Origin: Ardenticatena maritima
GTDB lineage: Bacteria > Chloroflexota > Anaerolineae > Ardenticatenales > Ardenticatenaceae
DNA length: 64,000 nt
Direction of reading: 5' to 3'
NCBI RefSeq assembly: GCF_001306175.1
Contig: NZ_LGKN01000006.1
Coordinates: 186,001 to 250,000, forward strand
Part shown: positions 52,042-55,916 of the stretch, piece after piece
Layout: each line of letters starts with the position of its first letter
Position numbering within the stretch: position 1 is the first letter of the stretch
Translations under genes and position numbers: made by a program
The notes under the pieces: generated by a model
What the model was told of the DNA's origin: nothing
The model's input: only the letters and a program-made list of their open reading frames with translations
Databases searched by the model: none

Positions 52042-52668
52042 TCACGCCTCGTGCTCGCGCGAAGCCAGCAGGCGTGTGCGTTCCTCCGGATTGGTCAGCA
52101 GCCCCCCCAGCAACATATCCACAAAAATGTCGCCAATTTGCTGAGGCGTCAGCCGCCCTTGCGGGTTGTACCAGCGATACGTCCACGAGACCATGCCAAG
52201 CAAGCCAAAGAGGGTGATTTGGGTATCCAGACGGCGAAAAACGCCCGTTTGCATGCCTTCTTCCAACACCTGGCGAATCAGCCCTTCGTATTGCAGGCGC
52301 AATTCGTCGATGGGACCACGCCGCTCCGGCGGCACCGACTTCATCTCATGCAGAAAAACCGCCATGAAGTCAGCGTGTTCAGCAATGGCAACGGTGGTGC
52401 GCCGAATAATCTCCGCCAGTTTTTGCTCCGGCGGCCAATCTTGTTCGGCAACGGGCAACACTTCTTCGAGCAAGCCGCGCACACCCCGTTCCATCAATTC
52501 GAGCAACAGCGCTTCTTTGCTTTCAATGTGGTGGTAGAGGCTCCCCCGCAAGATGTCGAGGGCTTCGGCAATATCCTGCATAGACGTGGCATGATAGCCC
52601 TTGCGCGCAAACAGGTGCGCAGCGGCTTGCAACAGTTCATCTCGGCGGGTGCGTGGTATCTCGCTCAT
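52042..52668 (-). CDS. TetR/AcrR-family repressor, probably of fatty-acid degradation
   Basis: A 208-residue regulator. The N-terminal HTH (RRDELLQAAAHLFARKGYHA, TSMQDIAEALDILRGSLYHH, ESKEALLLELM) is typical of TetR. The C-terminal domain is long and helical and may bind an acyl-CoA. Such proteins next to acyl-CoA dehydrogenase genes usually repress beta-oxidation and are released by acyl-CoA; that is inference from position. A 22-bp imperfect palindrome lies immediately before the start codon, downstream of the -10. ATG 52668 is preferred over the upstream TTG 52680, which would fall inside the operator. Confidence 0.88.
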   Translation of the reverse strand: MSEIPRTRRDELLQAAAHLFARKGYHATSMQDIAEALDILRGSLYHHIESKEALLLELMERGVRGLLEEVLPVAEQDWPPEQKLAEIIRRTTVAIAEHADFMAVFLHEMKSVPPERRGPIDELRLQYEGLIRQVLEEGMQTGVFRRLDTQITLFGLLGMVSWTYRWYNPQGRLTPQQIGDIFVDMLLGGLLTNPEERTRLLASREHEA

Positions 52669-52675
52669 GGTGCTT

Positions 52676-52697
52676 ACCAATCAAACGATTGTTTGGT
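52676..52697. promoter_or_regulatory. TetR-type operator
   Basis: Imperfect palindrome with arms ACCAA-n-CAA-n-C and G-n-TTG-n-TTGGT (9 of 11 pairs match). It starts 8 bp before the TetR start codon, just downstream of the -10, so TetR binding would block the TetR-acyl-CoA dehydrogenase operon. Confidence 0.7.
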
Positions 52698-52700
52698 TGA

Positions 52701-52729
52701 AGTGTATCACAAAGCCCACAAGGTGGCAA
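52701..52729 (-). promoter_or_regulatory. Promoter of the TetR-acyl-CoA dehydrogenase operon
   Basis: Minus-strand TTGCCA (52724-52729), 17-bp spacer, TACACT (52701-52706). Confidence 0.7.
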
Positions 52730-52750
52730 ATCCGCCACACACACGCACTA

Positions 52751-52794
52751 TTCTCATGAAACTCTCAGCAACTCTTCATCGCTTTCTCATGAAA
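52751..52794 (+). repeat. Tandem TTCTCATGAAA sites
   Basis: Identical 11-mers at 52751-52761 and 52784-52794, 33 bp apart (three helical turns). The second overlaps the -35 area of the candidate TACACT promoter at 52801. The core TTTC/GAAA symmetry suggests a dimeric regulator. No matching regulator is identified. Confidence 0.5.
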
Positions 52795-52800
52795 GCCTTT

Positions 52801-52898
52801 TACACTGTGGCGTGCACGCAACAAAAGGTTGCACCTCCTCCTTCTGTGTGTGCAGTGATGAGGCCGGTCGAGCGGGGCGACCGGTCTCATCGTTTTTC
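52801..52898 (+). ncRNA. Putative small RNA or terminated leader upstream of the CnoX gene
   Basis: A -10-like TACACT (52801-52806) precedes about 85 bases that end in a strong intrinsic terminator at 52857-52898. The predicted RNA starts near 52813, has a small hairpin GCAAC/GTTGC (52818-52832), an apparently single-stranded CACCTCCTCCTTCT (52832-52845) that resembles the 16S anti-Shine-Dalgarno sequence, and the terminator. There is no usable open frame. It could be a trans-acting sRNA, or an attenuator leader for the thioredoxin gene whose ATG is 72 bp past the terminator. A convincing -35 is lacking. Confidence 0.5.
52857..52898 (+). terminator. Strong intrinsic terminator of the putative sRNA/leader
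   Basis: 14-bp stem GATGAGGCCGGTCG / CGACCGGTCTCATC (one G-U pair), 7-base loop, tail GTTTTTC. Confidence 0.85.
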
Positions 52899-52969
52899 TC
52901 CGCGCTGTTTGGCGTTTTGTCTGCTTCTCCGTACAATAGCCGCAAAATATGAATACAGGGGGGGAGTGT

Positions 52970-53836
52970 ATGGGAAACGCACCGTATGTGATTGATGTCA
53001 ACGAGCAGGATTTTCAGAGCAAGGTACTGGCGAAGTCATACGAGGTGCCTGTTGTTGTGGATTTCTGGGCGCCCTGGTGCGGACCATGCCGCATGTTGGG
53101 ACCTGTGCTGGAACAACTGGCGGAAGAGTTCGGCGGGCGCTTCATTCTGGCGAAGGTGAACACCGACCAAAACCAGGGGCTGGCGATGCGCTACGGGATT
53201 CAGGGCATCCCGGCTGTCAAAGCCTTCCGCAATGGGCAAATCGTAGCCGAGTTTGTGGGCGCGCAGCCCAAGCCTGTGGTGCGCCGCTTCATCGAACAGT
53301 TGATTCCTTCGCCCGAGGATGAGAAAATCGCCGAAGCGCAGCGCCTGGCGTCGCAAGGGTTTGATGAGCGCGCCGAAGCCTTGTTCCGCGAGGTGCTTGA
53401 GCACAATCCCGACCACTGGGATGGCGCGCTGGCGTTTGCCACATTCTTGGTCAATCGTGGGCGTTTTGACGAGGCGCGCGAGGTGCTGGCGCGCATTCCC
53501 GAAGAAACGCCACAGGGGCAACGCGCTGCGCAACTCCTGGCGGAGATTGCTATCAAGGAGCAGGTGGCGCAAGGTCCCGGCGAAGATGAATTGCGCGCCC
53601 GCCTGGCGGAAAACCCCGGCGATGTGGAAGCCCACTTTGCGCTTGCCAGCCTGCTGAGTGCGCAGGAACGCTATGACGAAGCGCTTGCTGAGTTTCTGGA
53701 AGTGGTGAAACGCGACCGTTCATACAAAGATGACGGCGCGCGCAAAGCCATGCTGGCGATTTTCGAGAAACTGGGCGATGACCACCCATTGACGCAAAAA
53801 TATCGCTCGCAACTGGCGATGTTCCTCTATGCCTGA
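52970..53836 (+). CDS. Thioredoxin-TPR protein (CnoX/YbbN-like chaperedoxin)
   Basis: A 288-residue cytosolic protein. Residues 1-110 are a thioredoxin domain with active site WAPWCGPCRMLGP (both Cys present), then GIQGIPAVKAF (the cis-Pro). Residues about 120-288 are TPR-like helices with paired repeats (ERAEALFREVLEHNPDHWDG, RYDEALAEFLEVVKRDRSYK). E. coli CnoX lacks the first Cys and acts as a holdase that hands substrates to GroEL; members with CxxC can also reduce them. The ATG is preceded by GGGGGGAG; an upstream in-frame ATG at 52949 has no such site. A terminated leader lies just upstream. Confidence 0.85.
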   Translation: MGNAPYVIDVNEQDFQSKVLAKSYEVPVVVDFWAPWCGPCRMLGPVLEQLAEEFGGRFILAKVNTDQNQGLAMRYGIQGIPAVKAFRNGQIVAEFVGAQPKPVVRRFIEQLIPSPEDEKIAEAQRLASQGFDERAEALFREVLEHNPDHWDGALAFATFLVNRGRFDEAREVLARIPEETPQGQRAAQLLAEIAIKEQVAQGPGEDELRARLAENPGDVEAHFALASLLSAQERYDEALAEFLEVVKRDRSYKDDGARKAMLAIFEKLGDDHPLTQKYRSQLAMFLYA

Positions 53837-53857: not shown

Positions 53858-53887
53858 AAAAAAAGCGGCCCATGGGCCGCTTTTTTG
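53858..53887. terminator. Bidirectional terminator between CnoX gene and tRNA-Sec
   Basis: Perfect palindromic hairpin with GCGGCCC/GGGCCGC core flanked by six A and six T, functional for both strands. Confidence 0.92.
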
Positions 53888-53893
53888 TTGCCA

Positions 53894-53989
53894 CGGGAGC
53901 GGATGGGAGTCGAACCCACCGGGCCCGGCTCAGCGCCGCGCCCCACCGATTTTGAAGACCGGGGGCTCCACCGGGAACCAGCCGCTCCC
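53894..53989 (-). tRNA. selC: tRNA-Sec (TCA)
   Basis: A 96-nt minus-strand tRNA. It has an 8-bp acceptor (GGGAGCGG / CCGCTCCC), a long D region, anticodon TCA in the loop CTTCAAA, a long variable arm (GC-rich around GGCGCGGCGCTGAGCC) and T-arm GGTTCGACTCCC. The 8-bp acceptor, long variable arm and UCA anticodon are diagnostic of the bacterial selenocysteine tRNA. CCA is not encoded. It implies that selA, selB and selD lie elsewhere. Confidence 0.93.
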
Positions 53990-55367: not shown

Positions 55368-55838
55368 TTAGGGTCGAATCCACGCATAGTAGGCGGGAAA
55401 GGAGCGGTAGTTCACACCAGCGCTTTTGAGAATCTGGCGCACATATTCGTGGCTAATGCTCTCCACAATACCTTGTTGAACAGCCACCTCCGCCAACTTG
55501 TGCAACGTCCAGCGGGTGAACGGCAAGCCCAACTCGCGCGGTGGGGTCATGGCCAGTTGCACGATGGCTTGCTTCTGTTCCTCGGTAAAACGGGGGGGCG
55601 CACCACCTGAGCGGGGGCTAATCAGCCCTTCCACGCCCTGCTTGTTGAAGCGATGAATCCACTTGCGCAGGTTGGTTGGGTGAGCATGCAACACACGCCC
55701 AATTTCGGGGACGCGGTAACCTTCGTGCGAGAGCAAAATGATTTGCGCGCGATGACGCAAATCGGGGTCATCACCAGCCGCCCACTCGCGCAAGATGGTC
55801 TCTTCTTCGGGGGTCAATGCGCGAACATACAAAGCCAT
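55368..55838 (-). CDS. Orphan IS630-type DNA-binding domain protein
   Basis: A 156-residue protein that is only the N-terminal part of an IS630-family transposase: ALTPEEETILREWAAGDDPD, RHRAQIILLSHEGYRVPEIG (HTH 1), HPTNLRKWIHRFNKQGVEGL, then a second winged helix (FTRWTLHKLAEVAVQQGIV, SHEYVRQILKSAGV). It stops at YYAWIRP, just before the DDE nuclease domain would begin. It has its own AAGGAGG, a normal stop and a terminator, with no sign of decay. Likely a domesticated DNA-binding protein rather than an active transposase. Nested inverted repeats lie just upstream. Confidence 0.75.
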   Translation of the reverse strand: MALYVRALTPEEETILREWAAGDDPDLRHRAQIILLSHEGYRVPEIGRVLHAHPTNLRKWIHRFNKQGVEGLISPRSGGAPPRFTEEQKQAIVQLAMTPPRELGLPFTRWTLHKLAEVAVQQGIVESISHEYVRQILKSAGVNYRSFPAYYAWIRP

Positions 55839-55854
55839 GCGGTCCTCCTTTCGC

Positions 55855-55916
55855 ATCTTTCACTCCAAGGGCCTGTCCACAGGGTAGGAGTGCCGCATGT
55901 ATGCCACGTGAAAGAT
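55855..55916. repeat. Nested inverted repeats upstream of the IS630-like gene
   Basis: Outer arms ATCTTTCAC (55855-55863) and GTGAAAGAT (55908-55916); inner arms CACTCC (55861-55866) and GGAGTG (55887-55892); innermost CCTGT-CC-ACAGG (55872-55883). Could be an operator or a remnant transposon end. Confidence 0.55.

Follow-up and report, generated by a model that had tools for sequence, protein, structure and literature searches.

A predicted small RNA gene with an anti-Shine-Dalgarno loop and a probable response-regulator-type operator in Ardenticatena maritima

The region between the divergent tetR and cnoX genes of Ardenticatena maritima contains, on comparative evidence from four genomes, a free-standing small RNA gene with a predicted product of 85 nt (about 52813-52897 of the window, that is, of the whole 64,000-nt stretch analyzed here), and this RNA appears to constitute a real, conserved, unannotated sRNA family. 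We consider it quite probable that the RNA is trans-acting and stress-induced, under control of the OmpR/PhoB type, and that it represses translation by Hfq-free pairing with Shine-Dalgarno (SD) sequences; its conservation, its structure, the layout of its operator and the recurrence of this operator at htrA are shown below, and from these features we infer the transcription, the regulator, the signal, the targets and the repression.

Results

Organization of the locus

The features of the locus are given in Table 1, together with two promoter arrays found elsewhere in the same genome (G000, 3.56 Mb). The 5' end of the transcript is an estimate, 6-8 nt past the -10 hexamer, and the 3' end is placed in the T-run.

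Table 1. Features of the tetR-cnoX region (window coordinates) and of two other promoters with 11-bp repeats
Feature	Position	Strand	Remarks
tetR	52042-52668	minus	divergent from cnoX
Inverted repeat AATCAAACGATTGTTTGGTT at tetR start	52679-52698		direct reading; outside the sRNA gene; probably the TetR operator
Operator, four TTCTCA-like half-sites	52751-52789	plus	11-bp period
-10 hexamer TACACT	52801-52806	plus	11 bp past the last half-site; good -35 absent
Predicted sRNA transcript, ~85 nt	52813-52897	plus	covariance-model match; conservation in L035, L036, L037
5' hairpin	52813-52854	plus	loop 52829-52839 presents the anti-SD sequence UUGCACCUCCU
Invariant 28-nt core AGGTTGCACCTCCTCCTTCTGTGTGTGC	52826-52853	plus	same in four genomes
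Intrinsic terminator	52857-52897	plus	14-bp stem, loop AGCGGGG, T5
cnoX promoter-like site TTGGCG-17-TACAAT	52909-52937	plus	beyond the sRNA terminator
cnoX-type thioredoxin-TPR gene	52970-53836	plus	Pfam
htrA promoter array	G000:C3:268223-268256 (L043/L059); L060; L068		11-bp TTCTCA repeats, sRNA-like -10 spacing
TTGTAAG repeats at OmpR-type response-regulator gene	G000:C3:153400-153433 (L139); L140		probable autoregulation

The operator/promoter region of tetR (52676-52732) is 98% identical to that of a second Ardenticatena genome (G001) and thereby better conserved than the beginning of the tetR coding sequence. Immediately past cnoX, a selenocysteine tRNA gene lies on the minus strand (53894-53989), with a strong terminator-like repeat after it (53859-53886). 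An ORF with an HTH domain (HTH_32/HTH_29; 55368-55856, minus) is of the transposase type and probably represents an insertion-sequence fragment.

Structure of the predicted RNA

The strong terminator and the TACACT -10 element that an earlier sequence-only reading had described between the divergent genes are indeed present, the terminator being formed by arms 52857-52870 and 52878-52891, with T5 at 52893-52897. The same reading placed a small hairpin before a C-rich stretch (CACCTCCTCCTTCT, at about 52832-52845); the hairpin exists, but the order was misjudged, as the C-rich stretch is displayed in the hairpin loop itself (TTGCACCTCCT). The segment 52812-52900 folds at -42.9 kcal/mol, compared to -27.1 +/- 3.4 for shuffled sequences (z -4.7, none of 200 as good). 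Taken separately, the terminator has a folding z of -5.1 against shuffles, and the 5' hairpin folds at -16.0 kcal/mol (z -3.5).

Pairing in the 5' hairpin stem survives changes between orthologues from G.U to A.U and the reverse. In the terminator stem, six pairs are altered on both sides with the pairing kept, and the terminator loop GAGCGGGGC is invariant. Moreover, both the C-rich stretch and the terminator are conserved, a point on which the sequence-only reading had staked its proposal.

Conservation and distribution

Between the two Ardenticatena genomes, the core (52827-52854) is identical at 28/28 positions, the 5' hairpin at 38/39 (97%), the terminator at 33/35 and the operator at 30/40, compared to about 80% identity in the cnoX and tetR coding sequences and 11-67% in the flanks of the RNA; the upstream spacer retains 2/18 positions, the -10 region 9/24 and the T-run region 12/18. 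In two Ardenticatenaceae/Ardenticatenia MAGs (G002 and G005), the same RNA is flanked by genes for a glucan phosphorylase and an ABC transporter, the latter identified by eye from its translation; these copies retain the core AGGTTGCACCTCCTCCTTCTGTGTGTGC without change, and most of their terminator stem is replaced through paired changes. A kept core, a stem rewritten with its pairing preserved and changed neighbors are what a trans-acting RNA gene would show, whereas an attenuator would stay with the gene it controls. The predicted RNA has its own promoter-like element and intrinsic terminator, contains no conserved ORF and is kept regardless of its neighbors. The earlier suggestion of a C-rich, terminated sRNA is thus supported.

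The covariance model detects a single strong copy per genome (E < 1e-17) in all four; in the window genome, the match at 52812-52897 (104 bits) is the sole one, both in the window and genome-wide. None of the 294 remaining genomes of the class that were searched has a strong copy, and the model does not find the RNA in the draft assemblies of G003 and G004 (same family) and G006 (same order). The distribution is therefore patchy, though the assemblies are drafts. Weak class-level matches (L090/L095) correspond to the SD and start of an ABC permease-like gene encoded in the opposite direction, beside a terminator, and were discarded as chance look-alikes.

Operator and promoter

Two identical TTCTCATGAAA sites 33 bp apart had been reported upstream of the RNA. 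These sites (52751-52761 and 52784-52794) are real, but they are not a mere pair, being the first and the fourth units of an array of four half-sites, which start at 52751, 52762, 52773 and 52784, in an exact 11-bp period. The array is present in all four genomes. No shuffled sequence matches TTCTCA in the 11-bp register as well as the window array does (0/200,000), and the same holds for each of the four orthologues separately (0 of at least 100,000 shuffles). Identity at lag 11 across the four orthologues is 0.455, compared to 0.284 +/- 0.035 in shuffled sequences (0/2000), and among lags 3 to 27 none comes near it except its multiple, 22. The 11-bp gap between the last half-site and the -10 element is kept in 4/4 orthologues (TACACT, TATACT, TACTAT, TATTAT). 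The locus thus has the layout of OmpR/PhoB-type promoters, with direct repeats in phase every 11 bp next to the -10 element, which agrees with the regulated promoter predicted from the sequence-only reading.

In the Pho-box layout, the -10 element lies about 10-11 bp downstream of the repeats. PhoB binds two 11-bp direct repeats with a 7-bp conserved part, CTGTCAT (PMC2648988). As in the operators of the PhoB/OmpR family, the repeats upstream of the sRNA are in phase, have an 11-bp period and immediately precede the -10 element, with a weak or absent -35; unlike those of PhoB, the half-site is TTCTMA(T), it occurs in four copies, and the presumed regulon is htrA/dnaJ rather than pst/pho. By this analogy, the operator is probably of the response-regulator type, with four in-phase half-sites arranged as for OmpR/PhoB activators. 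The mycobacterial/corynebacterial MprA was considered as the regulator and rejected, as the motif published for Corynebacterium glutamicum, TKTTAAGAAM (PMC12113857), does not match the operator.

Other promoters with the same architecture

A genome search for operator sites in front of stress genes had been suggested by the sequence-only reading. Of the three exact copies of TTCTCATGAAA in the 3.56-Mb genome, two are those of the sRNA locus itself, and the shorter pattern TTCTCA-N5-TTCTCA occurs twice (about 0.4 expected, as estimated from base counts), once before an HtrA-type gene. Both arrays of the latter kind have TATACT 11 bp beyond the last unit and a gene downstream. The one preceding the gene of the HtrA-type PDZ protease is kept in G001, with a related arrangement in G004; in the window genome, a sigma-70-type gene lies just downstream at this locus. 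The other array precedes a secreted-protein gene, its last two units being poor matches. Arrays of the variant TTCTAA, again 11 bp away from the -10 element, stand before a gene with a DnaJ domain (four genomes) and a DUF2630-like gene (two genomes). The TTCTCA and TTCTAA sites may be bound by different regulators. Moreover, within the genus, 11-bp repeats of another sequence, TTGTAAG, lie beside the -10 element upstream of an OmpR-type response-regulator gene.

No pst or pho gene was found among the genome-wide operator matches. Since the operator architecture is common to htrA, dnaJ-like and secreted-protein genes, a two-component regulon of protein-damage or envelope stress can be proposed, and the sRNA probably belongs to such a protein-quality or envelope stress regulon, with few genes standing behind this assignment.

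The anti-Shine-Dalgarno loop and its predicted pairing

The loop of the 5' hairpin carries CACCUCCU, the anti-SD sequence of 16S rRNA. Together with the CCUUCU behind it, the loop sequence UUGCACCUCCU reproduces the 16S rRNA 3' end, sharing CACCTCCT with GGATCACCTCCTTTCTA in G002, and the resemblance pointed out in the sequence-only reading is thereby upheld. The G002 sequence was used as the 16S 3' end of the family; a pattern search did not find this end in G000. As the loop copies the 16S 3' end, pairing with ribosome-binding sites (RBSs) would be the natural mechanism of the RNA.

Among the 44 genes of the window, the RBS of cnoX has the strongest predicted pairing (-24.3 kcal/mol), but 84 of 200 RNAs with shuffled loops pair with it equally well, so that a cnoX-specific role is unsupported, and cnoX was dropped as a specific target. 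The mean hybrid energy over the 44 RBSs is -15.9 kcal/mol, only about 2 SD below that of the shuffled RNA (-14.4 +/- 0.8). The genome-wide target search with a 16-nt pattern (2 mismatches permitted) yields two start sites in G000 with 14/16 complementary nucleotides, those of a DUF302 gene (G000:C6:91688) and an ABC-2 permease gene (C3:968405), which are candidate targets.

Related RNAs in Caldilineales

Searched across 84,980 species, the core pattern TGCACCTCCTNNNNNTGTGTGTG is found at 22 loci. Seventeen of them are sRNA-like, all 17 in Chloroflexota (3 in Ardenticatenaceae and 14 of the Caldilineales type, in as many genomes: L107, L109, L111-L113, L115, L117-L123, L125), and the remaining five (L105, L106, L108, L110, L126) proved to be SDs, coding sequence or chance matches. 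The Caldilineales-type loci consist of the -10 element TTTACT, UCACCUCC, in most cases a GCACC/GGUGC hairpin, ACCUCCUUUC, GUGUGUG and the terminator, in that order, with up to three CACCUC motifs per RNA and compensated pairs in the terminators. Indels of lengths not divisible by three and dissimilar opposite-strand ORFs argue against coding.

As in the window RNA, there is a TGCACCTCCT-N5-TGTGTGTG core and a strong terminator, and the location is intergenic, with neighbors that vary between genomes. The 5' fold is different, and in place of the 11-bp repeats the promoters have the palindrome TATGATCTAGATCATA or its close variant, centered at about -41 in 13/14 loci, as in FNR/CRP class II. 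Covariance models of both groups match each other's loci, the Caldilineales-type model having the window element as its sole match in G000 (E 0.0026). A search of Rfam with the Caldilineales-type RNA gave nothing near a gathering score. Common descent of the Ardenticatenaceae and Caldilineales RNAs is plausible, while both groups may also have converged on the 16S sequence. It is possible, and we suggest it only tentatively, that they form one homologous family of sRNAs mimicking the 16S 3' end in Anaerolineae-type Chloroflexota, which would have been recruited by different regulators (two-component and FNR/CRP-like, respectively) and would act as Hfq-free general translation brakes.

Comparison with known systems

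No Rfam 15 family matches the window element at gathering score, the relaxed search yielding only an unrelated 13-bit match outside the RNA. Hfq (PF17209) was not found in G000; the same profile was found in 5/14 control genomes. The enterobacterial MicA, RybB and CpxQ serve as the sRNA arm in envelope-stress regulation, with the HtrA/DegP protease in the same regulon; the window RNA resembles them as the predicted sRNA arm of a regulon with an HtrA-type protease. These three sRNAs need Hfq and use other seeds.

Anti-SD loops are known from rhizobia and staphylococci. In Rhizobiales, the trans-encoded alpha-r14/NfeR1 and SmelA075/SmelA099 sRNAs have the ultraconserved anti-SD motif 'CCUCCUCCC' and are upregulated by stress from a conserved promoter element, and, as in the window RNA, the anti-SD motif in the hairpin loop is kept with variable stems (PMC3927594, PMC10746234). 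The Rhizobiales sRNAs, however, have three or four hairpins with CCUCCUCCC, whereas the window RNA has one loop with CACCUCCU and GUGUGUG; instead of the at least three CCUCCUCCC-loop hairpins that define these sRNAs, it consists of a single UUGCACCUCCU-loop hairpin and the terminator. It also comes from another phylum, with no sequence relation shown and Hfq undetected. Our literature search turned up no comparable sRNA family in Chloroflexota. As a predicted anti-SD sRNA under stress control, the family is ordinary in principle but new in sequence and phylum.

Discussion

In the proposed mechanism, an OmpR/PhoB-type response regulator would bind the four TTCTCA half-sites, all facing the same side of the DNA, and bring RNA polymerase to the adjoining -10 element. 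The promoter would probably be triggered by protein-damage or envelope stress, because htrA and probably dnaJ have the same operator. The RNA of about 85 nt would end at the strong intrinsic terminator, its 5' hairpin exposing the anti-SD copy UUGCACCUCCU to GGAGG-type RBSs, and pairing with the SD, without Hfq, would repress translation of some set of mRNAs, acting as a stress-induced brake.

The sequence-only reading had also offered an attenuator of cnoX, and indeed in both Ardenticatena genomes the next gene after the RNA is cnoX, in the same orientation, with a C-rich stretch of the RNA capable of pairing with the G-rich cnoX RBS, so that a cis-acting leader might terminate upstream transcription or let it read through. 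The RNA is, however, away from cnoX in G002 and G005, next to unrelated genes, the cnoX orthologue of G002 is found elsewhere without it, cnoX has a promoter-like site of its own past the terminator, and its pairing is matched by shuffled loops; we regard this explanation as unlikely. Control of the terminator by ribosome stalling on a leader peptide (TTG CAC CTC CTC CTT CTG TGT GTG CRG TRA, encoding MHLLLLCVQ/R) is very improbable: both Ardenticatenaceae variants of the RNA contain this frame with its stop, but the SD spacing is unusable, the start codon is rare, the genes downstream are unrelated to leucine or cysteine and differ between genomes, and in the Caldilineales RNAs L112 and L117 the GUGUGUG stretch has length changes of 2 nt, which would break the frame. 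We rejected it for the start context and these length changes.

A Pho box was our first reading of the 11-bp repeats, given their period and the distance to the -10 element, and the glucan phosphorylase gene adjoining the RNA in two genomes would fit phosphate starvation as the signal, with PhoB as the regulator and the sRNA mechanism unchanged. Matches before htrA, dnaJ-like, DUF2630-like and secreted-protein genes, with pst/pho absent, led us to abandon it for protein-damage stress, and we now hold it to be rather unlikely. That the terminator alone matters, insulating cnoX, with the remainder a spacer, is hardly credible: a strong terminator between promoters would be useful in any case, but it is the hairpin core that is more conserved than the coding sequence and kept at the other loci.

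The trans-acting, stress-induced anti-SD sRNA thus remains the preferred reading. Hardly any regulation by sRNAs has been described in Chloroflexota. Being conserved, searchable and preceded by a defined operator, the RNA offers a direct entry to Hfq-independent riboregulation in this phylum. Anti-SD loops would have arisen here at a large distance from rhizobia and staphylococci, and such an RNA would be tied to a regulon of the htrA/dnaJ type.
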